From NCBI GenBank assembly GCA_947452985.1, contig CANGEU010000010.1, positions 1 through 53,116 of the forward strand: 53,116 bases of DNA, given 5' to 3'. Source of the DNA: Micrococcales bacterium. GTDB taxonomy: Bacteria; Actinomycetota; Actinomycetes; Actinomycetales; Microbacteriaceae. Shown here piece after piece: positions 4,855 through 49,112 of this stretch. Below the pieces are notes generated by a model. That model was given only the letters and a program-made list of their open reading frames with translations, searched no databases and had not been told where the DNA came from. The translations under genes and the position numbers were made by a program. Positions within the stretch are counted from its first letter, which is position 1. Each line of letters begins with the position of its first letter.

Positions 4855-5402
4855 TACTTAGTTAGCGCCTTTGGGTAGGCGGCTTTTAGAGCAACTACTA
4901 CGATTACCGAGATGACAATCTTGGCTGCGTCTCCAACTAGGAATGGCAGGTTACCCTGAGCCACGGCAAGTACTGGGAACTTGTTCACGTAGGCAAACCA
5001 GAGGATTCCTGGAATGTAGATGGCAACGATTCCGCCGAGGATGAAGGCGAGAACCGAGCTGATTACTAGAGGCACCTTTGGAAGTGCTGCGATAACCAGA
5101 CCGATGACCCAAGAACCGATCAACCAACCGATTAGGTAACCTGCGGTTGGGCCGACAAACGCTGCTGCGCCACCGCGGCCACCGGCAAGAAGTGGAAGTC
5201 CGGCAAGCACTAGAACTTCAAAAATGAATACGGCTAGGGTTCCGCGGTAGCTACCAAGTACAGCACCGGCAAGCATTACGCCTAGGGTCTGGGCGGTTAC
5301 TGGAACGCCTGGGAAAATGTAGACAGCTGGAAGCAGGCCGAGGGCGGCAATTAGACCAACAAAGATTGCGATGCGAGGGTAGTCGCGTAGTTCTAGTTTC
5401 AT
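4854..5402 (-). CDS. bioY: Biotin transporter substrate-binding subunit BioY
   Basis: S-component of the biotin ECF importer: 182 residues, about six membrane helices. Diagnostic segments are Pro-Val-Thr-Ala-Gln-Thr-Leu-Gly-Val near residue 35, the Gly-Gly-Arg-Gly-Gly loop near 75 and Gly-Pro-Thr-Ala-Gly-Tyr-Leu at about 85-91, all typical of BioY. The ATG (5400-5402) has AAGGA 6 nt upstream. Its promoter must lie in the 44-bp divergent region shared with the TetR gene, where a perfect palindrome sits. No biotin synthesis genes occur in the window, so the cell may depend on uptake (inference). Confidence 0.94.
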   Translation of the reverse strand: MKLELRDYPRIAIFVGLIAALGLLPAVYIFPGVPVTAQTLGVMLAGAVLGSYRGTLAVFIFEVLVLAGLPLLAGGRGGAAAFVGPTAGYLIGWLIGSWVIGLVIAALPKVPLVISSVLAFILGGIVAIYIPGILWFAYVNKFPVLAVAQGNLPFLVGDAAKIVISVIVVVALKAAYPKALTK

Positions 5403-5413
5403 TAGAGTTCCTT

Positions 5414-5430
5414 CCTGAACAGTGTTCAGG
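5414..5430. promoter_or_regulatory. BioQ operator (17-bp palindrome)
   Basis: CCTGAACA-G-TGTTCAGG, a perfect inverted repeat around one base, lies between divergent bioY and the TetR gene. The core TGAAC-N3-GTTCA matches, from memory, the BioQ-box pattern of actinobacteria. It overlaps the region where both promoters must lie, so one bound repressor could shut off both genes. Confidence 0.75.
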
Positions 5431-5431
5431 T

Positions 5432-5437
5432 TAGTAT
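5432..5437 (+). promoter_or_regulatory. -10 element of bioQ
   Basis: TAGTAT lies 9 nt before the bioQ ATG and immediately after the operator palindrome. There is no Shine-Dalgarno in front of the gene, so a leaderless or very short leader is likely. Confidence 0.45.
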
Positions 5438-5446
5438 TACTTCATC

Positions 5447-6007
5447 ATGAATGCAAGTCGCCACTCGAAAGCCGATGTACTGGCAGCTGCCATGCGTTTA
5501 CTAGATGAGGTTGGGTTGCCAGATCTCACAATGCGCCGACTTGCCACAACCTTAGACGTTCAGCCAAGTGCGCTCTACTGGCACTACGCCAATAAGCAGA
5601 GCCTGCTGGCTGAAGTATCGAACGCCATCGTAGGTTTCGCCAAACCGGTTGCGGGAGCTAGCCCCTGGCAGGAAGCAACCAAGCTTGAGGCTCTAGCCTT
5701 GCGAGATGCCCTACTCGCCTTCCGCGATGGCGCCGAAGTGGTTTCAAGCACCCTCGCTTTGGGTTTAGGTGCCGATAGTGCACTAGAAAGACTTGAGGCA
5801 TCGATTGCCATCGACGACCGCCTGCTGGCACACGCCGCCGCGGAGTCAATTCTGTTCCTAGTGCTCGGCCAGGTTTGGCATGAGCAGCAACGCATGCAGG
5901 CAAACTCGCTCGGTGTCGTCGATAACCTCGACCTCTCTGGAACACCCAATCTAGAAATTGGAATTCAGTTGATTTTGAACGGACTTAGCGCGAAAGTTAA
6001 AGCATGA
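5447..6007 (+). CDS. bioQ: TetR-family repressor of biotin uptake (BioQ)
   Basis: TetR/AcrR regulator of 186 residues. The N-terminal helix-turn-helix includes Met-Arg-Arg-Leu-Ala-Thr-Thr-Leu-Asp-Val, Ser-Ala-Leu-Tyr-Trp-His-Tyr and Lys-Gln-Ser-Leu-Leu, typical of the family; the C-terminal half is the dimer/ligand region. Divergence from bioY over a BioQ-like palindrome identifies it as the likely repressor of bioYMN and of itself. In corynebacteria and mycobacteria BioQ answers to biotin status, possibly through the biotin protein ligase; the signal here is not visible. Its stop overlaps the DUF4287 start (ATGA). Confidence 0.85.
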   Translation: MNASRHSKADVLAAAMRLLDEVGLPDLTMRRLATTLDVQPSALYWHYANKQSLLAEVSNAIVGFAKPVAGASPWQEATKLEALALRDALLAFRDGAEVVSSTLALGLGADSALERLEASIAIDDRLLAHAAAESILFLVLGQVWHEQQRMQANSLGVVDNLDLSGTPNLEIGIQLILNGLSAKVKA

Positions 6008-6213
6008 CCGAACCAGTAAAAGGCCCAGCAAGCTACTTCCCATCAATCATCAAAAAGTACGGCCAGCCGATTGAGCACTGGATGACTCAACTAGAACAGG
6101 TTCGCGACCTAAAGCACATGGAACAGGTGAAGTTCCTGCAGACCGAGTTTGAAATGGGTCAGGGACATGCAAACGCTATCGTGCACGTTTTCCGCAAGAA
6201 CAACGGCCTCTAA
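6004..6213 (+). CDS. DUF4287 small protein
   Basis: A 69-residue soluble protein matching the DUF4287 pattern: a Tyr-Phe-Pro-Ser-Ile-Ile-Lys-Lys-Tyr-Gly start, Ile-Glu-His-Trp in the middle and a helical end with Glu-Met-Gly-Gln-Gly-His-Ala-Asn-Ala-Ile-Val. Function is unknown. It is translationally coupled to bioQ by a 4-nt ATGA overlap, so it is co-expressed with the biotin repressor, but nothing else ties it to biotin. Its stop overlaps the convergent DUF554 stop by 4 nt. Confidence 0.75.
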   Translation: MTEPVKGPASYFPSIIKKYGQPIEHWMTQLEQVRDLKHMEQVKFLQTEFEMGQGHANAIVHVFRKNNGL

Positions 6214-6956
6214 AGCAGCGACGAAACCAGCCAGGTAAATAGCGGGGCAAGCACCAGAGCTGGCAACATGTCGGCAACCGCAACCTTGCGAAGGTTTAGT
6301 AGGCGCAGGCCAATCCCGAGCATCAAGATTCCACCCGTAGCGGTAATCGAAGCGGTCATGGCTCCTGGGATTCCGGCGCCACCAAAGTAGGCGACTGCGG
6401 TGAGAAGCCCCTGCCAAATGCCAACTGTGATCGCCGAAGCTGCAACACCCCAACCAAGACTGGCGGCAAAGGCGATCGACGCGAAGCCGTCCAAGATTGA
6501 TTTCACAACCAAGGTGTTGGAACCCTGACCAAGGCCGTCTGACATCGAACCCAAAATAGCCATCGGCCCAATTGCGAAAATTAGTGATGCATCCACGAAA
6601 CCGGTGATGAACCGCTGGCGACTTTCGGAACCCTGAGACTTCTTACTGAAACGAGCCTGAAGCCAGCCGCCAAACCCTTCAAGTCGGTCCTCAATTTTGA
6701 GAAGACTGCCCGCGATACCACCGAACAGGATGGCGAAGATGACGATGAAGAAGGTTCCAGGGCCGGTCACGGCTTTCACGTAGTCGTTGTCGGAGAGCGA
6801 CATTAGGTTCAGCCCACCCAAGACGATGGTGATCAGGCCGAGAGAATCGGTAACAGTTCGGTTGGTTTTCTCGGAAAGCTTCGAACCCAAAAGCGTTCCA
6901 AGCAAGGTGCCAACCACAATAGTGGCGATGTTGAAAACTGTTCCGAAACCGATCAT
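6210..6956 (-). CDS. DUF554 membrane protein
   Basis: Integral membrane protein of 248 residues with about six to seven hydrophobic segments. The Gly-Thr-Leu-Leu-Gly-Thr-Leu-Leu-Gly-Ser-Lys-Leu start, Gly-Pro-Met-Ala-Ile-Leu-Gly-Ser-Met-Ser-Asp-Gly and a Gly-Gly-rich tail (Thr-Gly-Gly-Ile-Leu-Met-Leu-Gly-Ile-Gly-Leu) match DUF554 (YdfK-like). Function is unestablished; a transport role is only a guess. The ATG lies 6 nt behind TAAACT with no Shine-Dalgarno, and a palindrome (6966-6979) overlaps that hexamer, so it may be repressor-controlled. Confidence 0.82.
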   Translation of the reverse strand: MIGFGTVFNIATIVVGTLLGTLLGSKLSEKTNRTVTDSLGLITIVLGGLNLMSLSDNDYVKAVTGPGTFFIVIFAILFGGIAGSLLKIEDRLEGFGGWLQARFSKKSQGSESRQRFITGFVDASLIFAIGPMAILGSMSDGLGQGSNTLVVKSILDGFASIAFAASLGWGVAASAITVGIWQGLLTAVAYFGGAGIPGAMTASITATGGILMLGIGLRLLNLRKVAVADMLPALVLAPLFTWLVSSLL

Positions 6957-37644: not shown

Positions 37645-38637
37645 GTGGGAAAATCATTCAAATTCATTGACTTGTGCGCCGGTATAGGTGGCCTCCGAAT
37701 CCCTTTTGACGAACTCGGCGGTGAATGCGTTTTTACATCTGAGATCAACAAGGCGGCTCGTCAGACTTACTCGATGAATTTTCTTGATGGCGCCAAGGAC
37801 TCTCTCGAAGCGGAATCTCGAATCAACACAGATGTTGTAGAAATCGGCAGCGACCGGCCAAAAGATGTCCCAGAACACGACTTGGTAGTGGCCGGATTTC
37901 CATGCCAGCCATTTTCACATGCTGGCAAAAAATTGGGATTTGAAGATACGAGAGGGACGCTATTCTTCTCGATAGCCAACATCATTGCCACGAAGAGACC
38001 CCGTGTGGTTCTTTTAGAAAACGTGAGAGGCCTCAAAACAAACGACGGTGGAAACACTCTTCGCCGAATACTGGAAGTACTAAGAAACCCCGCAGAGGGT
38101 CTTGAGTATTACGTGCCCGAACCTAAAATTCTTTGCGCCAGGGATTTTGGCCTAGCTCAAAATCGAAATCGAATCTTTATTGTCGCAATTCGCAAAGACA
38201 TCCCCGGTGCCGAAAATTTCGAATACCCTGAACCGACCCACAAGCGAGATGAAGTCTGGCTCAAGGATTTCTTGCTGCCAAATCCCGACAAGAAGTTGAC
38301 TATAAGTCAACGGCTTTGGGATGGGCACATTAAAAGAAAGGTCGCTAACACAAAGGCTGGCAAAGGATTTGGCTTTCAAAAATTTGATCCCGAAAAAGAC
38401 CATTATGTGGCGACAATTTCCGCACGATATTACAAAGATGGCTCTGAAGCCCTAATTGAACAACCAGGGAAACCTACGCCTAGAAAATTAGACCCTGAAG
38501 AAATAAAGTTTCTTCAAGGCTTTCCAGCTCACTTCCAACTCAATAGCTCCTCTGTTGAGGCCTACCGACAGCTTGGTAATGCTGTTCCGGTCTCCGTTAT
38601 TAGGGCAATCGCAAAAAAGTTAGAGCCTTTCCTCTAG
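37645..38637 (+). CDS. DNA (cytosine-5) methyltransferase
   Basis: C5-cytosine methyltransferase, 330 residues, complete. Motif I Phe-Ile-Asp-Leu-Cys-Ala-Gly-Ile-Gly-Gly (7-16) binds S-adenosylmethionine; motif IV Gly-Phe-Pro-Cys-Gln-Pro-Phe-Ser carries the catalytic Cys88; motif VI Glu-Asn-Val; motif VIII Gln-Asn-Arg-Asn-Arg near 172; the target recognition region lies between; motif X Gln-Leu-Gly-Asn-Ala-Val-Pro near 309. The start is GTG. It is convergent with the AIPR gene, the stops interlocking as CTAG, so it is not in the same transcript as the four defence genes but is probably their modification partner. GC content is lower than in flanking genes. The recognition sequence cannot be predicted. 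Confidence 0.94.
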   Translation: MGKSFKFIDLCAGIGGLRIPFDELGGECVFTSEINKAARQTYSMNFLDGAKDSLEAESRINTDVVEIGSDRPKDVPEHDLVVAGFPCQPFSHAGKKLGFEDTRGTLFFSIANIIATKRPRVVLLENVRGLKTNDGGNTLRRILEVLRNPAEGLEYYVPEPKILCARDFGLAQNRNRIFIVAIRKDIPGAENFEYPEPTHKRDEVWLKDFLLPNPDKKLTISQRLWDGHIKRKVANTKAGKGFGFQKFDPEKDHYVATISARYYKDGSEALIEQPGKPTPRKLDPEEIKFLQGFPAHFQLNSSSVEAYRQLGNAVPVSVIRAIAKKLEPFL

Positions 38638-40715
38638 ACAGAAAAATCTGGAAGGCTCACACCTTCCGCCTTTGCACGAGTGAGTAGCTCATAAATTACT
38701 TCATATTCTCGGTCACTACTTAGTGCTCCTTGACTCAGGAGCTTCTTTAGGACTGAACTTTCTCTCGGGCTAATGCGGAGATTGCCAGGTTGAGTTGCCA
38801 TCAAATCTTTCAAATAACTCGAATCCAGGCTCACTACATATGTCATTTTTTGAGCCAAATTGACCATTGACCCGGCCACGCGATCTTGTCGAACTTCCTC
38901 ACGTTCTTGTTCCTTGTCGAGAGGTTGAATTTCAGGTATCGCCTCCCACGAAAGCAAAATAGTTTTTTCTTTTGCCTGTTTCCAGCAATTTTGATCTTTT
39001 GCCCACTCGGTCACATTTTCCTTTGGGCGTCTCGGATCGGTGAGTTGGTCAAGCATGACCTTTGCAATCCCTAGGAGAGAATTCAAAAGCTCGTCTGACA
39101 AGAATTGGTTCTTCCAAACAAGTTCCCAATCCAAGGAAAGCTTTCGTGACTCAAGTTCGGCACTTAATCTAGCGAGTGCATAAGTGACAATATTCGCTGC
39201 ATAACCCCCGTACCATTCAGCTTTCATTACCCGCTTGTGAAGTTCTTTAAAGAGAATGGCCTGGCAAATTGATTGCTTGAAAAACCGTTCACCATACTTC
39301 AATTCATTTGATGCATAACTTTCAGCAATTTGATTTGCAAATGCCAGAAAGTTTTTTTGAGCTCCATCGCTGACTTTATGGGGTAGCTGATTCCAAGAAT
39401 TATGAAACTTAGCTAAGTCGGTTTTTGTCAAAACTTGAGCTTTTGGATACTTTAAATCGAATTGCTTGACGTTAGAACTTCTCGACCGTTCATTGGCATA
39501 GGACCCTCGGGCTCTTTCGTAGAACCAATAAGTAGAAATTTGGCTCCCGCCCCTAGGGTTTGCAGCAATACGTTTCGAAAGTTCCTCAAACTTACGGTGG
39601 AAACTACTATTTGAGAAGAAGTCTGCTTCACTGACCTTGTTTTGACTATTTGAATACCGTGCAATCTGAGGCACCATTTCATCAGCTGCTTCTGGTTTGA
39701 CTACGAGAAGTTTCATCTGAACATTAGCTTTTTTCAGATTTGATGAGTCCTTTTCTCTCTTTAGGAAGTCATGCATCGAAGCGGTTGTTTGGCCGCCATT
39801 TACTATCTGCAGATCGGATATTTGCGAAATAAAGGCCACAGAGCCTTCAGACGCAAAAGTTACAGAAGTCGCTGTTGCTGTAATTCCGTTATTGAAAGCC
39901 AAGAACTTTTCTGGCACGTTTAGCAAACTTAATCGAATGCCTTTATTTACTGCACCTCTGGCACTCAAGAAGCTGCGGACATTGCCCTCAAGAAGTCGAG
40001 ACCCATACTTATCGAAAATAGCCGCCAACACGTCACCACGGATAATAGCCATATAAGAACCCAAGAGTTCAGAAGTTTTAGAAGAAGTTGGCAAAGCAGG
40101 TATTCCCCCTGGGTACCACTCGGTGAAGTCGATGGCAATTTCTTCTCGCCCTTGTGCAGAAGCGTATGCATCAAAAAATCTATTCAAATCCCAGACTGTG
40201 TAAACGACTGGCTTTTTGTCCAAATCTTCGGCTTCAAGTTGCTTTACTCTATTCGACAGAGTTCGGTTGGTTGCCAAATAAAAACGGAATTTATTTACTG
40301 CACCTCGATTTTCTAATAGAAGTTGGCCCGCAGCGACACTTTCCTCGTGCTTGGGGAAATTTCTAAACTCATTTAGGTCAAGGCAATTTTCAATGAATGC
40401 TCGCAATTGTCCGAAAAGTGACTCGATTTCTGTACGAGTTATGGTGGATTCATTATCTACATCGTTGAAGTCGGAGATAACTGCTACATAGGTTCCGTCA
40501 ACTTGGTCGAACCCAAAAGCATCAATCGCGAGTTTTTTCCTGTTTCTTGCGGTGCCTTGGAAAGGAGCTTGTACTAAATCAGAAAGTTCATTTGCCTCGG
40601 AAAGTCTTTCAAGCGCCCACGAAGTGAAGGCATCTCGTGGATACTCACCAAGGCCTACGCTTGCTGATCTGACATCGATAAGCATCGACTCATAAAAGTC
40701 AGTTGTCTCACTCAT
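38634..40715 (-). CDS. AIPR-family phage-defence protein
   Basis: Protein of 693 residues of the AIPR family (abortive infection phage resistance, Pfam PF10592). The hallmark region is Leu-Ala-Phe-Asn-Asn-Gly-Ile-Thr-Ala-Thr-Ala near 275 and Ile-Val-Asn-Gly-Gly-Gln-Thr-Thr near 305, followed by a domain with Ala-Arg-Tyr-Ser-Asn-Ser-Gln-Asn-Lys-Val. The biochemical role is not settled. It is the last gene of the ATPase-Z1-DUF4420-AIPR operon; its ATG overlaps the upstream stop by 8 nt. Codons are AT-rich relative to the host, as in the rest of the island. Confidence 0.88.
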   Translation of the reverse strand: MSETTDFYESMLIDVRSASVGLGEYPRDAFTSWALERLSEANELSDLVQAPFQGTARNRKKLAIDAFGFDQVDGTYVAVISDFNDVDNESTITRTEIESLFGQLRAFIENCLDLNEFRNFPKHEESVAAGQLLLENRGAVNKFRFYLATNRTLSNRVKQLEAEDLDKKPVVYTVWDLNRFFDAYASAQGREEIAIDFTEWYPGGIPALPTSSKTSELLGSYMAIIRGDVLAAIFDKYGSRLLEGNVRSFLSARGAVNKGIRLSLLNVPEKFLAFNNGITATATSVTFASEGSVAFISQISDLQIVNGGQTTASMHDFLKREKDSSNLKKANVQMKLLVVKPEAADEMVPQIARYSNSQNKVSEADFFSNSSFHRKFEELSKRIAANPRGGSQISTYWFYERARGSYANERSRSSNVKQFDLKYPKAQVLTKTDLAKFHNSWNQLPHKVSDGAQKNFLAFANQIAESYASNELKYGERFFKQSICQAILFKELHKRVMKAEWYGGYAANIVTYALARLSAELESRKLSLDWELVWKNQFLSDELLNSLLGIAKVMLDQLTDPRRPKENVTEWAKDQNCWKQAKEKTILLSWEAIPEIQPLDKEQEREEVRQDRVAGSMVNLAQKMTYVVSLDSSYLKDLMATQPGNLRISPRESSVLKKLLSQGALSSDREYEVIYELLTRAKAEGVSLPDFSV

Positions 40716-41646
40716 TTTCGACCGCGTAAGGTTTGATCGCGTGTAGTGCTAGGGAATATGACACTTTGCCTATACCTGGTGGCAAATCGCCAACTTTTAT
40801 TGACGGGAAACCATCTTGTTTAACATCAAAAATCGATAAATCAAGTTTCAAAAATTTTATTGTGGCACAAAGTGGCTCATCTAAGCTGAAGCCTAATCCC
40901 GAAACTAAATCGAGAAATTTTGATTTTGTGTCGCCATTGAATTGGCTTGAAATGCTGGTAACAAGCTCACTCAAAGTGGTTCCAGGCCCATTATCGGAGT
41001 CTGCGATTTTATAGATTCTGAGAGTAAAGTCACCGTCAAACGTGAGCTGGTGCTCTGAAGAGATTTTTACTTCAATTCCATCGGAATGGACAGATTTCAC
41101 CTCTACAGCTTCGTTGCCGAAGACGAAATCTTGATGTCCACCCAACGGGCCACGCCAGCAATTCACCGCCTCGTTTTGACCAAATTTTGGAATTGCATAA
41201 TCCTTCAAAGTGAGTAATTCTGCAAAAAGACCCCTTGCAGATTCCACTGACATCTTTGCAGCTGGCTGGAAGAATTTTGCCCAGGTTAAATACGCGGTCG
41301 CCTGCGCATTGATGGCGTCTTTCTCAGTTAGGCAAGCTAGGGTGGCCTCGTACATGTCCGCACTAAGTGTTAGAAATTCTCTCTGAAACTTGTCATCCGT
41401 CAGTTCAAATATTTGAACGTGCTTGCCATCCGGCCTTTGAGAATTAGAAATTCTGATGACACGAGTGCCCGAGAGCAGTTTTGAGGATTCTTGGGATATG
41501 CATAGAAATTGCAAGTTTCCCGAAGTGCCAATTCCACAGTATTGAGCGAGCTTACTTGAAGGATCGACTCGGATGTACTCTCCAGGGTTGGCAGCACTCC
41601 TGATTTCATTCCACTTTGTTATTAGTAAACCTTCGTGCTGTGACAC
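40708..41646 (-). CDS. DUF4420 PD-(D/E)XK-motif protein, putative nuclease
   Basis: Protein of 312 residues matching DUF4420, annotated as PD-(D/E)XK-motif proteins. The core is Trp-Arg-Gly-Pro-Leu-Gly-Gly-His-Gln-Asp-Phe-Val-Phe near 165, then Val-Glu-Val-Lys-Ser near 182: Asp and Glu-x-Lys are the expected metal ligands, so this is the probable DNA-cutting subunit. I use GTG 41644-41646, which has GGAGG six nt upstream inside the end of the Z1 gene and begins one base after its stop; the longer open frame has no such site. Its end overlaps the AIPR start. Confidence 0.84.
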   Translation of the reverse strand: MSQHEGLLITKWNEIRSAANPGEYIRVDPSSKLAQYCGIGTSGNLQFLCISQESSKLLSGTRVIRISNSQRPDGKHVQIFELTDDKFQREFLTLSADMYEATLACLTEKDAINAQATAYLTWAKFFQPAAKMSVESARGLFAELLTLKDYAIPKFGQNEAVNCWRGPLGGHQDFVFGNEAVEVKSVHSDGIEVKISSEHQLTFDGDFTLRIYKIADSDNGPGTTLSELVTSISSQFNGDTKSKFLDLVSGLGFSLDEPLCATIKFLKLDLSIFDVKQDGFPSIKVGDLPPGIGKVSYSLALHAIKPYAVENE

Positions 41647-41647
41647 C

Positions 41648-44362
41648 CTAGTCCTCCGTATCTTCGATGTCTTCATTTTCGGAATCTGTAATATCAAATT
41701 CCGCCATAGTCTGATTGAATCGCTGCCAAACCGTATTGACGATAAACGTCACGGTCTCTCTTTCCGCAATCGGCCCATCTCCCCGAGGGAAACTTAGATG
41801 GACACCCACGAGTGGTGTTTCATTGGATGGTGTCATGAATGGCTTCATTGGTGCGTCATCTGGAACAGGTTGCCCGTCATGAGTCTTAGTTTGTAGGAAA
41901 TAGAGCAGCATGAGTGGGCGCTCCATAATTGCTCGGTAAGCGCTTGCTGGAGCCTCTTTCTTGTTGTCAATTTTGTATTGCGCGATTATGGCCTCTTGTT
42001 CGGCACTCATACAGATAGCTAAATCAGAACGTCCGCCAAGTCGCATCTTGACACCGCCGACATACAAAATATCGCCCTTTTGATAAATGCGTCGAGCGGT
42101 TTTCTTATGTTTTGAATTTATTTGAAGAAGGTCATCTCCGCTTCCTGAGATAAGAGCAACATCCCAGTCCTGAAGAATTTCACTTCTTGCAGTTGCAATA
42201 AAGGTCGCCAAGGCAGTACCAAAATAGGGGTCCGATTCTGATGGCTTGAAGTTTGTCAAGAACGAGGCAACCGCTGTCTTTGGCACCTTGTGCCAAGTTT
42301 CAGACCTTACTCTCTTGTATTGACTTTCGTAACCCTCGGTTCGAAGCCCTTCGATAAATTTCTTGGCTTCGTTCCAGTTATCTTGGTGAGCTATAGACGC
42401 AAGAGGAAGTCGCGCCGTTTCCAGTGACGAATTCATCAATGAAATCTTCATGTTTACTGATTGACCTGACCTCGACTTATTCATTGCTGTCACCGTCAGC
42501 ATAGATCCAGGATGTTTTCTAATAGCCAGCCCAAATTCCTTCGGTGTTAGACCAGCAATTCGCATGTCTTTCAAGTCATTACGAAGATCTGCCGTGGCTT
42601 CAGCGATGAATACGTACCATGAGGCGACTTCTTTATCAATCCATAGACGACATAGGTCATCGTAGCCCTCACGGTAACCAAACCAACGCCCCATTTGCAT
42701 CAATGTGTCGTAGGCCAGACTTCTTCTGTAGAAATAGCTGGTAGATAAACCTTCGAGCGTGAGCCCTCGTGAGAGTACATCCCCTCCAATAGCTATCACT
42801 CGAGCGCGATCAGTCGCATAAACCGCATCCCAGGCCTCGGCGGAATTCTTGCTGTTGACCACATGAACTTCGATCGGCTCAATGGCATTGTTCAAGGCTT
42901 TCTTAACCTTCGCCCATGAAGCGCCAGATTCCTTAAACTCCAAATCAAAGACGCGTTTCAAGGCTTCCCACTCGGGGCCATTCTGGTCAGTGTCATACTT
43001 CAAGGCATTTCGCATAACGGATACCTTGTTGCTCACCAAGTCAAAGACACGAGCTTGAACATCAACAAATCTCGATACATTTATCAACATGGACCGAGGC
43101 TTTTTGTCTTGACCTCTCAAATCCCGAATTGAATTAACAAGGAAGAAACTTCGAATCGAATCGTTCAGAGATTCGGGTAGTGCCGAAACAGTTAATGTCC
43201 GGCGATGTTTGAATGGGAAAACCGACTCGGCGTCATCTAGGGTCTTTATAAATGGATTCGACCCAAAGTCATCATCATCGCCATTTGCCAACATTCGATC
43301 TGGACCAAAATAGTTACTTGGGCTGTCTAGACAAAAGATGAAATCTCGAGGGAACAAATCTTCAGGCTGTTCGTCGTCAATAAGAACATTTGCGAATGGC
43401 GTAGCAGTAAATCCGACATACGAGTTCTTTTCGAACCGAGCTAATAGGTCTTGAATTCCCTGGTTTATTGCTGTTGCCGCCTGAGGATTTTGATTTGTAT
43501 TGATGGAAGCGAAATCTGCTTCATCATCCAAAAGCAACATAGGAGTCTTTAACTTCCCATCTTTAGGAACCTGCGAAGCTAACCACTGAACCAAGTTGTC
43601 AATGATGCGTTTATTCTTCTTGATCACAAACACAACTGGAGAATTTAGGGCTTGCACATCGATGTTGTTTCCAGCTACTTGCGCTGTTGAAAAATCACTG
43701 TTGTAGGTCGTGAATGGAGTAGCCGTTATACCCAATTTTCCGACACCAACGGTATTCGGCTGCAACTGCTGTAGCCCTTGGCCAAGCAATCGGCTGTCTC
43801 TACCAACAAACCCCTCGTCAACACGAGCCTGAGTTTGCTTGCGTAGCTTATCCGTGTGCCCAGCGAGCAAAATAATAGCTCGGTATCCTGCGTCTGCGGC
43901 TTTGTTGAACAAAGCAAGATAATTGGCAGTCTTTCCTGACTGAACGTCACCGATAACTAGGCCTCTTCTAGCCCAAGAACCCTCCATTACTGGGTTACCG
44001 GCAAGATCTAAGATTATGTCTTGGCGCCTGTGGATTGCATCAATCACCTGCGGTTCGAGGCCTTTAGTCGCAAGCATCTTGGAATAAGCCTCCCAACGCT
44101 TGAAATCAATTTCGGGCCTTCTTTTGTCAAGCCACGGTTCGTGTTTGTCTGCAAGGACCTCACCAATATCGATTACAACTGCCCTGCTCGCCTGAATTGT
44201 ATTTACAGCTTTTTCCAAGCAATCTTCCGTAAGTTCTGGAGCTACTACTGGAGCAAGTACCATGACAAGACGTTGCAGTTCCTGCTCTGAAACTGCTGCA
44301 AGGCCCAAATTGCCGTTAACGGTATTAATCAGTTGATTTAGTTTTTCTTCATTACAGTTCAT
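41648..44362 (-). CDS. Z1-domain helicase-like protein
   Basis: Large protein, 904 residues, of the Z1 family (PF10593), a superfamily 2 helicase-like ATPase found in restriction-type loci. Walker A Gly-Asp-Val-Gln-Ser-Gly-Lys-Thr near 138; Walker B Leu-Leu-Leu-Asp-Asp-Glu-Ala-Asp near 277; motif III-like Gly-Phe-Thr-Ala-Thr-Pro-Phe-Ala near 315; a late Gly-Gly-Asp-Val-Leu-Ser-Arg-Gly-Leu-Thr near 527 and Gln-Met-Gly-Arg-Trp-Phe-Gly-Tyr-Arg near 557, corresponding to motifs V and VI. The C-terminal 300 residues have no recognised domain, and the last 15 are acidic. Its ATG shares one base with the ATPase stop (TAATG). Likely a DNA translocase or remodeller for the nuclease. Confidence 0.9.
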   Translation of the reverse strand: MNCNEEKLNQLINTVNGNLGLAAVSEQELQRLVMVLAPVVAPELTEDCLEKAVNTIQASRAVVIDIGEVLADKHEPWLDKRRPEIDFKRWEAYSKMLATKGLEPQVIDAIHRRQDIILDLAGNPVMEGSWARRGLVIGDVQSGKTANYLALFNKAADAGYRAIILLAGHTDKLRKQTQARVDEGFVGRDSRLLGQGLQQLQPNTVGVGKLGITATPFTTYNSDFSTAQVAGNNIDVQALNSPVVFVIKKNKRIIDNLVQWLASQVPKDGKLKTPMLLLDDEADFASINTNQNPQAATAINQGIQDLLARFEKNSYVGFTATPFANVLIDDEQPEDLFPRDFIFCLDSPSNYFGPDRMLANGDDDDFGSNPFIKTLDDAESVFPFKHRRTLTVSALPESLNDSIRSFFLVNSIRDLRGQDKKPRSMLINVSRFVDVQARVFDLVSNKVSVMRNALKYDTDQNGPEWEALKRVFDLEFKESGASWAKVKKALNNAIEPIEVHVVNSKNSAEAWDAVYATDRARVIAIGGDVLSRGLTLEGLSTSYFYRRSLAYDTLMQMGRWFGYREGYDDLCRLWIDKEVASWYVFIAEATADLRNDLKDMRIAGLTPKEFGLAIRKHPGSMLTVTAMNKSRSGQSVNMKISLMNSSLETARLPLASIAHQDNWNEAKKFIEGLRTEGYESQYKRVRSETWHKVPKTAVASFLTNFKPSESDPYFGTALATFIATARSEILQDWDVALISGSGDDLLQINSKHKKTARRIYQKGDILYVGGVKMRLGGRSDLAICMSAEQEAIIAQYKIDNKKEAPASAYRAIMERPLMLLYFLQTKTHDGQPVPDDAPMKPFMTPSNETPLVGVHLSFPRGDGPIAERETVTFIVNTVWQRFNQTMAEFDITDSENEDIEDTED

Positions 44363-45891
44363 TAGTTGTCTCCTGACGATAGGTTCAAGAAATACTCTTT
44401 ACGGTCTTCAATTTCAATGTTTAAGCCTGGAGTAGTGGAAACCGGAGGCGTTTTAAGTAACTCAGCGAATGCGGCTTCGGGGTCACCGCTGATTGACTTC
44501 AGCGCAAGATAAAGTGCTTCTAGCGGGAAGTCAGTTTCCGCGCTTGTTACCGCATGATCCCCAGTCAGGCGGTCATAAATTTCATTCATTGGGAACAGAG
44601 ATTCGATAGCCTCGAACAATGCTCCGAGTTGGCGCCTCTGAGTTTGATTAAGACTTTCGTCCAAGGCCATTACCAGCGGGTAGTTTAAATTGATGTTCAA
44701 AGAAAACGCACCGTCACCTAATTCTTTGATTACCCAAGCAGAGTCTCGTGAACCAAGAGCAAGAACATTCTGGCCGCGTGTAACACGTTGGGAGTCTCCA
44801 ACGATTCTTGGAACGATTGCGCGGAGTCTATCTCTAAGGATTTTGGGAGGCTGCACTGAAGACTTCATAATTCCGAGCCGCCACTCGGTATCAAGTGAAT
44901 TCGGCGTATCTACTCTCACTCTCGCCAACTTGGATAGTTCTGTTTTTCCGGTCATTCGGAACCACGTACCCCAACTTAAGAGTCTTTTATTTCTGTAAAT
45001 GTAGAACCCTTGCGTGTCACGCATTGTCTCGCCGATGAGCGCCGATTTCCTCTGTTCTGCAGTCAACTTATTCTGGTCAGGCAAAATGTAAGGTTTCGCA
45101 GTTACAATTTCGGAGCCAATCCTAATAACCATCTCATCTTTCACTTGGGTCCCTGGTGCTGACTCCAAAAACGGATCCATTGGCTTTAGTTCTGAATTAT
45201 TGAGGTAGATGTGAACTTTAGCGGTTCCTACCTGCTGCATAAATCTATGAAATACCAAACTCAGGTGCTTACTTACCTCATCCTTGAGCTCCGTGAATTC
45301 GTCCTGATCCATGTCTGGTGAACTCAGAAGTAAATCTAAGTCGCGCCAAAGAACCTGCGTGCCATGGCTTAACTGCCCTAAATGAATGCTGCTAGGAAAT
45401 GTGGCCAAGTCCTTAGTCTCTAACCATCGAAGAACCCAATCGCCCTTTGTTTGGATGTAGTCCAAATCCCACGACGCAATGAAATTCTCACCCTGAGTGG
45501 CCTTAGTCGCAACGGTTAAATTTCGACATTGTGAAAGTGATGCTGTTTTCAAGCCAAGCCCAAAGCGGCCAAGATCATTTTTGTCTCTATCGGCAACTGG
45601 TGATCTACCGGCCAACTTCATAGCTGTTCTGAGAATTTCTTTGTTCATTCCCCGGCCGTCATCAAGGATTGAAACATGCAATTCTGGGTGGCTTTCAAAA
45701 TTGATCCAGATATTCTTTGCATCAGCCGCAAGTGAATTATCAACTAGGTCTGCAATTGCCGTTTGTAGAGAGTATCCAACGGCTCGCATTGACTCAAGCA
45801 AATCCGCACTAGGAACTAGCACTTCGTCAGTAGATCCCAAACTAACCCCCAAATAATTTCTTTCTCGTACTCTACTAGAGAGGAGTGACAC
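44362..45891 (-). CDS. GHKL/MORC-type ATP-binding protein
   Basis: Histidine-kinase/Hsp90/MutL-like ATPase, 509 residues. N-box Ala-Ile-Ala-Asp-Leu-Val-Asp-Asn-Ser-Leu near 45-54, with Asp where many relatives have Glu; G1 Asp-Asp-Gly-Arg-Gly-Met near 78; G2 Gly-Arg-Phe-Gly-Leu-Gly-Leu-Lys near 109; then a Ser-His-Gly-Thr segment. Such proteins were grouped with MORC ATPases in comparative studies of restriction-type systems. The start is GTG with GGTGGA upstream. It is the first defence gene, 21 nt after the 202-aa gene, and its stop is coupled to Z1. Confidence 0.88.
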   Translation of the reverse strand: MSLLSSRVRERNYLGVSLGSTDEVLVPSADLLESMRAVGYSLQTAIADLVDNSLAADAKNIWINFESHPELHVSILDDGRGMNKEILRTAMKLAGRSPVADRDKNDLGRFGLGLKTASLSQCRNLTVATKATQGENFIASWDLDYIQTKGDWVLRWLETKDLATFPSSIHLGQLSHGTQVLWRDLDLLLSSPDMDQDEFTELKDEVSKHLSLVFHRFMQQVGTAKVHIYLNNSELKPMDPFLESAPGTQVKDEMVIRIGSEIVTAKPYILPDQNKLTAEQRKSALIGETMRDTQGFYIYRNKRLLSWGTWFRMTGKTELSKLARVRVDTPNSLDTEWRLGIMKSSVQPPKILRDRLRAIVPRIVGDSQRVTRGQNVLALGSRDSAWVIKELGDGAFSLNINLNYPLVMALDESLNQTQRRQLGALFEAIESLFPMNEIYDRLTGDHAVTSAETDFPLEALYLALKSISGDPEAAFAELLKTPPVSTTPGLNIEIEDRKEYFLNLSSGDN

Positions 45892-45912: not shown

Positions 45913-46521
45913 TCAATAAGTAATGTGCCCAACCGCGTCATCGATCCTTCTAATGTTGTCGAGGAGTAGGCCACAACTGCATACGGTTTTGTATCCCGAA
46001 ACATACATCAAGGTTTTGTGGGCGTTCTCCAGTTGCAGACGTTTGATGAACTGGGCTTTCAGGGAAAGTTCTTTGGCGCCTAGTCGCTTCTCCAGGGTTG
46101 GAAGCGTGGTTGCTAGTTCTTCGAGTCGCTCGATTTCTTTGTCGATGTAGCGGTACTTGTCGTAGTACTTAGGTTGTGGGGTTTCGCAGTCGATGAATGG
46201 TTCGTTAGAGAAGTAGAGCCAGGCGTGGCCGCGATTTGATTCGATGGTTATTGCGCCGGTGTTGCCGACCTTCTTGAAGTGGTTTGGGTTTGCTGTTTCA
46301 ATAGCTCGTATGACTGCGCTTGGGTTGTGGTTGTAGACGATCTCAGTTTTGCCTTCACTGGTTATCTCGAAGGCATTGCTGGTGATGTGACGGATTGTCA
46401 TTGGGAGTCGAGGTTCGTCTCGCCATTTGTTCAGGACTGGGATCCAGTGGAGGTTATGGCCGGGTTTGTAGCTGGCGCATTCGACGGTGCCAAGGTTTGC
46501 TTCAACGGTTGGTTCGGACAT
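45913..46521 (-). CDS. Hypothetical protein downstream of SAM riboswitch
   Basis: Not recognised. 202 residues, soluble, with an N-terminal domain (about 1-115), a charged helical stretch (about 118-170) that may be coiled coil, and a Cys-Ser-Cys near the C-terminus. No methionine-pathway enzyme motif is seen. Codon choice resembles host genes around 46-50 kb rather than the AT-richer defence genes. The ATG directly follows a hairpin whose 3' arm contains GGGG, the only possible Shine-Dalgarno, in the expression platform of the leader RNA. It is followed after 21 nt by the defence operon on the same strand. Confidence 0.68.
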   Translation of the reverse strand: MSEPTVEANLGTVECASYKPGHNLHWIPVLNKWRDEPRLPMTIRHITSNAFEITSEGKTEIVYNHNPSAVIRAIETANPNHFKKVGNTGAITIESNRGHAWLYFSNEPFIDCETPQPKYYDKYRYIDKEIERLEELATTLPTLEKRLGAKELSLKAQFIKRLQLENAHKTLMYVSGYKTVCSCGLLLDNIRRIDDAVGHITY

Positions 46522-46525
46522 AGAA

Positions 46526-46553
46526 AATGCCCCTTTCTTGGGGCATTAGCCCC
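46526..46553 (-). promoter_or_regulatory. Riboswitch expression platform (alternative hairpins)
   Basis: Two perfect, mutually exclusive hairpins on the minus strand share GCCCC (46540-46544). Sequestor: AATGCCCC-AAGAAA-GGGGCATT, hiding GGGG 8 nt before the ATG and followed by TTCT, so it might also terminate. Anti-sequestor: GGGGC-TAAT-GCCCC. The GGGG of the anti-sequestor is also the 3' half of the aptamer pseudoknot. Confidence 0.7.
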
Positions 46554-46660
46554 ATCTATGTTTGCTCTTGCGAGCCCTATCTTGTTTTCCCTTATGCACC
46601 GATGCCGATGGGGGCCGGTTGCTTTGGCAGGGGAAGGGATCCTGATCTGCCTCTTGATAG
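46549..46660 (-). promoter_or_regulatory. SAM-I/SAM-IV-type riboswitch aptamer
   Basis: Minus-strand RNA with these parts: P1 CTATC (46656-46660) with GATAG (46577-46581); J1/2 AAGAG; P2 GGCAG (46647-46651) with CTGCC (46626-46630); conserved GCAACC (46617-46622); P3 ACCG (46616-46619) with CGGT (46598-46601), extended by GCC/GGC; conserved GGTGCA; pseudoknot 1 CCCTT (46634-46638) with AAGGG (46589-46593); hairpin GCTC-GCAA-GAGC (46564-46575); pseudoknot 2 CCCATC in the P3 loop (46607-46612) with GATGGG (46551-46556). UAUCAAGAG, GCAACC and GGUGC are core SAM-I family elements. A missing P4, an extra hairpin 3' of P1 and the second pseudoknot match SAM-IV or the SAM-I/IV variant. Read by eye. 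Confidence 0.82.
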
Positions 46661-46709
46661 TTGGTTATTAAGTTGTGTTTTTATCTTAGGTAGTTGGTCT
46701 GACTTTTTT

Positions 46710-48613: not shown

Positions 48614-48901
48614 ATGGCTATGGTTACTTTGCGACTAGACGACGAACTCAACGATCGTTTGACTCGAGCTTCCCGGCACACCGGGCAGTCGAAGAGTCAG
48701 ATTATCAAGGGTTTGCTTCGAGCCAACATGGATGAGATTGAAAAACTTAAGTCTCTCGAAGAGAGCATCGCTGAGTACCGTAAACAAAAAGCCGAGGGGA
48801 CTCTAGAAATGATGACCTTCGATGAATTCAAAGCCCGCCACCCAGAAGATTTTGCTGCAATTGAGCCCAAAGTTCGAGGAAGATTACGAAAAACTCGATA
48901 A
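48614..48901 (+). CDS. Ribbon-helix-helix antitoxin (RelB/CopG-like)
   Basis: Antitoxin of 95 residues. The N-terminus is a ribbon-helix-helix DNA-binding domain: beta strand Met-Val-Thr-Leu-Arg-Leu-Asp, then Leu-Thr-Arg-Ala-Ser-Arg and Ser-Lys-Ser-Gln-Ile-Ile. The C-terminal part should wrap the toxin. AGGAG precedes the ATG. It autoregulates through the 19-bp palindrome (inference) and overlaps the toxin frame by up to 80 bp. Confidence 0.85.
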   Translation: MAMVTLRLDDELNDRLTRASRHTGQSKSQIIKGLLRANMDEIEKLKSLEESIAEYRKQKAEGTLEMMTFDEFKARHPEDFAAIEPKVRGRLRKTR

Positions 48902-49112
48902 AGGAGCCAGAGCGCCTGTTGCAAAGAAACTAGAACAGATTCGGCAGTCTGGTCACTTTCCCAAATTGAAATCACTTTCAGGACACCTCAAAGGATTTCA
49001 ACGTTTCGAAGTGGGAAGTTTACGAATTATCACCGAAGTCGATGTTGCAAACCGGACCTTGAAATTGGTGCGAATTGAATATCGCGGAAGCGTCTACAAC
49101 CAAAAACGTTAG
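48822..49112 (+). CDS. RelE/ParE-superfamily toxin
   Basis: Toxin of up to 96 residues with the RelE/ParE fold pattern: Leu-Ser-Pro-Lys-Phe-Glu-Glu-Asp-Tyr-Glu-Lys-Leu, Lys-Leu-Lys-Ser-Leu-Ser-Gly, Gly-Phe-Gln-Arg-Phe-Glu-Val-Gly-Ser-Leu-Arg-Ile and a late Val-Arg-Ile-Glu-Tyr-Arg-Gly. RelE toxins cut mRNA on the ribosome; ParE types poison gyrase; sequence does not decide. The start is uncertain: ATG 48822 lacks a Shine-Dalgarno, and TTG 48852 or 48861 would begin nearer the domain edge. Confidence 0.8.
   Translation: MNSKPATQKILLQLSPKFEEDYEKLDKGARAPVAKKLEQIRQSGHFPKLKSLSGHLKGFQRFEVGSLRIITEVDVANRTLKLVRIEYRGSVYNQKR

Follow-up and report, generated by a model that had tools for sequence, protein, structure and literature searches.

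In a 53,116-nt stretch of DNA from a Micrococcales bacterium (contig CANGEU010000010.1; the whole stretch is called the window below), we find an RNA leader on the minus strand that has the architecture of a SAM-I/IV-type riboswitch for S-adenosylmethionine (SAM) and keeps the pseudoknot PK1. It probably acts as a translational OFF switch at the head of an accessory operon consisting of an orphan open reading frame (ORF1) and genes resembling MzaB, MzaC, MzaD and MzaE, which are defence genes. SAM riboswitches are normally expected ahead of methionine or SAM biosynthesis genes. Here, a SAM sensor stands ahead of a probable anti-virus gene cluster instead.

Aptamer architecture and relatives in the genus

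We searched the whole window with Rfam cmscan, both as the 53,116-nt stretch and as a 601-base excerpt. The only match at gathering threshold was RF01725 (SAM-I-IV) at 46665-46548 (-), which covered positions 1-99 of the 99-position model and scored 41.3 bits, a narrow 0.2 bits above the cut-off of 41.1 (E 0.0024, or 2.8e-5 when the 601 bases were searched alone). The source genome, which is 92% complete, yielded no second RF01725 match at E<=1. With strict filters, neither RF00634 (SAM-IV) nor RF00162 (SAM-I) gave anything at E<=0.1 in this genome, and RF00162 exceeded its cut-off in 0/67 genomes of the genus. A first-pass annotation of the window had read a SAM-IV or SAM-I/IV riboswitch at 46549-46660 from the letters and proposed a search with these three models. 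The outcome that would have refuted this reading, no SAM-clan model scoring above threshold, did not occur. Its interval lacks only the flank of the RF01725 match, and every helix it had drawn is found where it placed it. The elements, all on the minus strand, are as follows.

46548..46665 (-): SAM-I/IV aptamer, full Rfam model, RF01725, 41.3 bits
46656..46660 (-): P1 5′ strand CUAUC, pairing 5/5 with GAUAG at 46577-46581; P1 covaries in 15 leaders
46577..46581 (-): P1 3′ strand GAUAG, from sequence and comparison
46626..46651 (-): P2 hairpin GGCAG...CUGCC, 5/5 pairs; its loop holds PK1 strand CCCUU (46634-46638)
46596..46622 (-): P3 with the GCAACC and GGUGC core; its loop holds PK2 strand CCCAUC (46607-46612)
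46589..46593 (-): PK1 3′ strand AAGGG, 5/5 with CCCUU
46564..46575 (-): hairpin 3′ of P1 with a GNRA (GCAA) cap, called P5 for SAM-IV in PMC6890682
46551..46556 (-): PK2 3′ strand GAUGGG, 6/6 with CCCAUC; overlaps hairpin A (see below)

The SAM-I-type core (UCAAGAG, GCAACC and GGUGC, with P1-P3) is present, and UAUCAAGAG, GCAACC and GGUGC are all intact. The leader very likely binds SAM. The Rfam assignment supports membership in the SAM-I/IV family: the RNA matches the full-length model, P2 is a single helix, and the hairpin and PK2 strand lie 3′ of P1, with compensatory changes in PK2 among the 15 leaders compared below. In the excerpts of the literature cited here, the SAM-I/IV class has a P2 without internal loop (PMC2864571) and lacks PK-1 (PMC6890682), whereas SAM-IV has PK-1, the P5 hairpin and PK-2 (PMC6890682). 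The window RNA differs from the former in that PK-1 can be drawn and in fronting an ORF1-MZA operon. It shares all three elements with SAM-IV but gave no RF00634 match, and its P2 is not split into P2a and P2b. It thus shows a mixed state between the class definitions. PK1 of the window is not significant alone, as a 5-bp match arose in 9.4% of shuffles of both segments.

Because the score of the window is marginal by itself, we used its relatives to judge chance. RF01725 matched at E<=0.1 in 11/149 related genomes, seven of them over the cut-off; all belong to the genus of the window, whose own genome is counted. RF00634 matched at E<=0.1 in 13/67 genus genomes, 11 over the cut-off. Counted by locus, SAM-clan leaders occur in 16/67 genus genomes, after removal of one chance match (G046) and one match of a rearranged type (G044). 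Thirteen exceed an RF01725 or RF00634 cut-off, two score below (G019, 29.4 bits; G039, 25.3 bits), and one, locus L100 of G008, was spotted by eye ahead of a DUF3293 gene. The rejected G046 locus (L071, RF00634 E 0.091) has neither an expression platform nor a fitting gene. Rfam gives no SAM match at gathering for either L032 or L100, and the nearest relatives of the window leader, L031 and L032, both fall under the RF01725 cut-off.

We compared helices in 15 of the 16 leaders, leaving out L051 (G031), whose contig ends 26 bases behind the RNA. In P1, P2, the 3′ hairpin and PK2 the letters vary while pairing is mostly kept, and PK2 is fully paired in every leader. The misses are confined to P3b (2/3 in L032 and L100), P1 and P2 of L052 (3/4 and 5/6) and the 3′ hairpin of L070 (6/7). 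All 10 leaders with a long P2, the window included, allow a PK1 of 5-7 pairs to be drawn. It is CCCUU/AAGGG in the window and UUCGUU/AACGAA, UCCGUU/AACGGG (one G-U), CCUAG/CUAGG, CCUGA/UCAGG or CUUCCGG/CCGGAAG in others; the helix and PK1 arms were chosen by hand, which biases the comparison in favour of the model. The remaining five leaders (L024-L028) have a short P2 with a GNRA cap, and no PK1 was drawn there. Directly upstream of P1 we also read by eye the sequence AACTAAATA (AACTTAATA in the window, 46666-46674(-)), which recurs in L031, L032, L033-L038, L050-L052 and L100 and is possibly the −10 region of a shared promoter.

Expression platform and downstream operon

Between the aptamer and ORF1, at 46556-46526, lies an expression platform that the first-pass annotation had not described.

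46539..46554 (-): hairpin A (UGGGGC-UAAU-GCCCCA; -11.4 kcal/mol), predicted to act as anti-sequestor in the ON state
46526..46547 (-): hairpin B (AAUGCCCC-AAGAAA-GGGGCAUU; -13.0 kcal/mol), predicted to sequester the Shine-Dalgarno sequence in the OFF state

The GCCCC strand is common to both hairpins. The first GGGG overlaps the PK2 strand GAUGGG, and the second is the Shine-Dalgarno sequence, 8 nt ahead of the ORF1 start. In the proposed mechanism, P1 and PK2 (CCCAUC/GAUGGG) of the SAM-bound RNA would occupy the leading GGG of GGGGC. This would leave GCCCC available for pairing with the Shine-Dalgarno GGGG in hairpin B, and ORF1 would go untranslated. When SAM falls, GGGGC would pair with GCCCC in hairpin A, the Shine-Dalgarno sequence would be released and ORF1 would be made. 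Since PK2 takes the first GGG, SAM should switch the leader OFF, a sense that we consider likely. Hairpin B is more stable than hairpin A, and the ON state must therefore be kinetic or ribosome-assisted.

A triple of word, complement and word (4-6 letters) is present in 21/22 leaders, comprising the 15 SAM-clan leaders and seven of the rearranged type described at the end, and its third strand lies at the Shine-Dalgarno position in 20. The exception is the rearranged leader L033b, which has no such triple. Against dinucleotide shuffles, the triple of L030 was equalled by 71/200 and those of L025, L027 and L029 by 16-22/200, whereas the other 17 were equalled by 0-4/200. In L069, GCCCCGA...UCGGGGC-UUUUU occupies the corresponding position and applies this logic in terminator form. 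This locus (L069:8303-8467(-)) has a SAM-IV leader and an intrinsic terminator ahead of an N-formylglutamate amidohydrolase gene.

The genes behind the switch and the adjoining methyltransferase gene are listed below.

45913..46521 (-): ORF1, the first gene after the switch; 202 aa, of an orphan family; N-domain C..Y.PGH..HWIP and CxCGL tail
44362..45891 (-): MzaB-like HATPase, 509 aa; PADLOC MzaB 3.2e-66, Pfam HATPase_c_3
41648..44362 (-): operon part between the MzaB-like and MzaD-like genes
40708..41697 (-): MzaD-like DUF4420 PD-(D/E)XK protein; PADLOC MzaD 5e-12, Pfam DUF4420 7.4e-50
38634..40715 (-): MzaE-like AIPR protein, 693 aa; PADLOC MzaE 1.2e-74, Pfam AIPR
37645..38637 (+): C5 cytosine DNA methyltransferase, convergent with the operon; Pfam DNA_methylase 9.7e-79, NCBIfam dcm

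With an MzaC homologue (PADLOC 4.9e-114), homologues of MzaB, MzaC, MzaD and MzaE all lie within one gene run. They are on the same strand as ORF1, begin 21 nt behind it and overlap one another, and on balance MzaB-E would be co-regulated with ORF1 through a shared transcript. The operon resembles the MZA system (mzaABCDE), and homology suggests a role in defence. It differs in that Pfam scans revealed no sigma factor in the operon, whereas mzaA is a sigma factor in the cited part of PMC9523054. Among the PADLOC matches listed, for eight distinct proteins (25 of 64 families for the methyltransferase), there was no MzaA, though whether the library holds an MzaA model was not checked. The first-pass annotation had not recognised the gene behind the leader; this holds for ORF1, which has no match in Pfam, PADLOC, PHROGs or NCBIfam, but the operon behind it, which that annotation had not identified, is recognisably of MZA type.

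Relatives of ORF1 occur in 9/149 related genomes, its own counted. Of the seven loci with ORF1 relatives in the named collection, all from metagenome-assembled genomes, two are titled Rhodoluna sp., four Micrococcales bacterium and one Auritidibacter sp., and the isolate name SFB_Fresh suggests a fresh-water habitat. There was no tblastn match to ORF1 or to a CxCG protein among 50,697 phage records and no ORF1 relative in the viral contig collection. The motif H...CxCGL...GH, which forms the C-terminus of ORF1 (45913-46521), also occurs in small orphan proteins at L024, L030, L050, L052 and L070, often two in tandem behind the leader. An RHH/ParE-like toxin-antitoxin pair (48614-49112) is found beside the TPR gene bordering the hotspot.

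Genes behind related leaders and competing readings

The first genes at the 16 loci are of ORF1 type at four (window, L027, L029, L032), of CxCG type at four (L024, L030, L050, L070), DUF3293 at three (L026, L028, L100), a 307-aa orphan at two (L025, L031), a 67-aa ORF followed by CxCG genes at one (L052) and the amidohydrolase at one (L069); one is unreadable (L051). Setting aside a weak lyase resemblance of DUF3293, none of the readable first genes (0/15) can be recognised as a methionine or SAM gene. Although 96% identical, the leaders of L031 and L032 precede different genes, which means that leaders and genes have been re-paired, by deletion or exchange. In the wider bacterial family RF00634 matched in 50/249 genomes. 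Among the best 30 of 55 places, one orphan family starts within ~330 nt of the core in 23, as judged by a generous iterated hidden Markov model search, while one place fronts a luciferase-like monooxygenase and one a major facilitator superfamily transporter. The orphan family (L236, L239, L241-L258, L261, L263, L264) has the motif W-S-x-LL...PP...AGFTPE, and five representatives gave no Pfam match at E<=0.01.

Unknown first genes are common behind SAM-IV leaders in the wider family, which weakens a purely defence-related reading. A SAM-OFF switch on restriction-like genes would raise them at low SAM, while methylation falls, a danger to the cell unless the response is intended for doomed cells. 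The danger makes control of ORF1 alone a serious rival: ORF1-type proteins would be useful when SAM or methionine is short, and the defence genes would be downstream passengers of a cargo hotspot. We regard this as the less likely arrangement, yet one with a substantial chance of being correct. The aptamer may instead have drifted to another ligand or survive as a relic serving only as promoter and leader, a reading favoured by the marginal 41.3 bits, nearest relatives below the cut-off, and leaders in the genus with a rearranged J1/2-P2 region; with the core motifs intact and all helices and the switch retained, such drift seems improbable. A SAM-ON interlock would allow expression of the restriction-like genes only when there is enough SAM for host protection by the methyltransferase. 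This would be sensible for a methylation-guarded system, and a methyltransferase does adjoin the operon. Such an interlock is nevertheless very improbable, as the platform in 20/22 leaders and the terminator form in L069 both predict OFF with SAM.

The same danger lends appeal to a more speculative extension of the OFF switch, to which we give a small but real chance. SAM-destroying phages, in disarming methylation-based defences, would release SAM-OFF riboswitches that restrain defence genes, so that SAM loss itself would trigger them. ORF1 with the MZA-type operon here, and shuffled orphan genes including DUF3293 elsewhere in the genus, might then make up an immune regulon under riboswitch control. 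According to the cited part of PMC7877911, the first phage enzyme of the SAM-degrading kind was discovered as a countermeasure against restriction-modification. DUF3293 is present in 8/67 genus genomes and stands at SAM-I/IV leader loci in 4/8 (L026, L028, L032, L100); no leader was seen for the other four within the upstream bases inspected. Pfam S-AdoMet_lyase matched 4/8 DUF3293 proteins, including those of L032 and L100, with E of 0.0054, 0.034, 0.034 and 0.16, none of which reaches the curated cut-off. PDB searches with DUF3293 returned no SAM lyase, and 51 stretches in the viral contig collection yielded no relative. A putative lyase function of DUF3293 offers the SAM-depletion reading a lead but does not amount to evidence of activity.

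Rearranged leaders and viral contigs

Further leaders in the genus are SAM-IV-like, with P1, a GCAACC/GGUGC P3, PK2 and the same platform, but lack UCAAGAG before P2 and instead have, between the first hairpin and P3, a AAGAAGAG stretch. They are found at L036:9119-9233, L038:3314-3434, L033:2385-2504, L034:622-736(-), L035:1604-1718(-) and L037:10211-10325(-). The three sources tested (L034, L036, L038) gave no Rfam SAM-clan match at gathering. Our model R2 recovered 13 strong places in 8/67 genus genomes, several of which have two or three. About 3.8 kb before the rearranged leader of L036, an abiF RNA (RF03085, 48.9 bits; L036:5292-5327) lies upstream of an Abi_2 gene (5347-6261).

Two leader patterns had 0 matches each in the viral contig collection. 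A loose SAM-core pattern matched at least 120 stretches, very probably by chance; model R1 scored two of those 120 at E<=1, one convincingly. This is L161:2120-2221, a SAM-I/IV riboswitch of 66.1 bits on an IMG/VR contig that also bears host-like genes.
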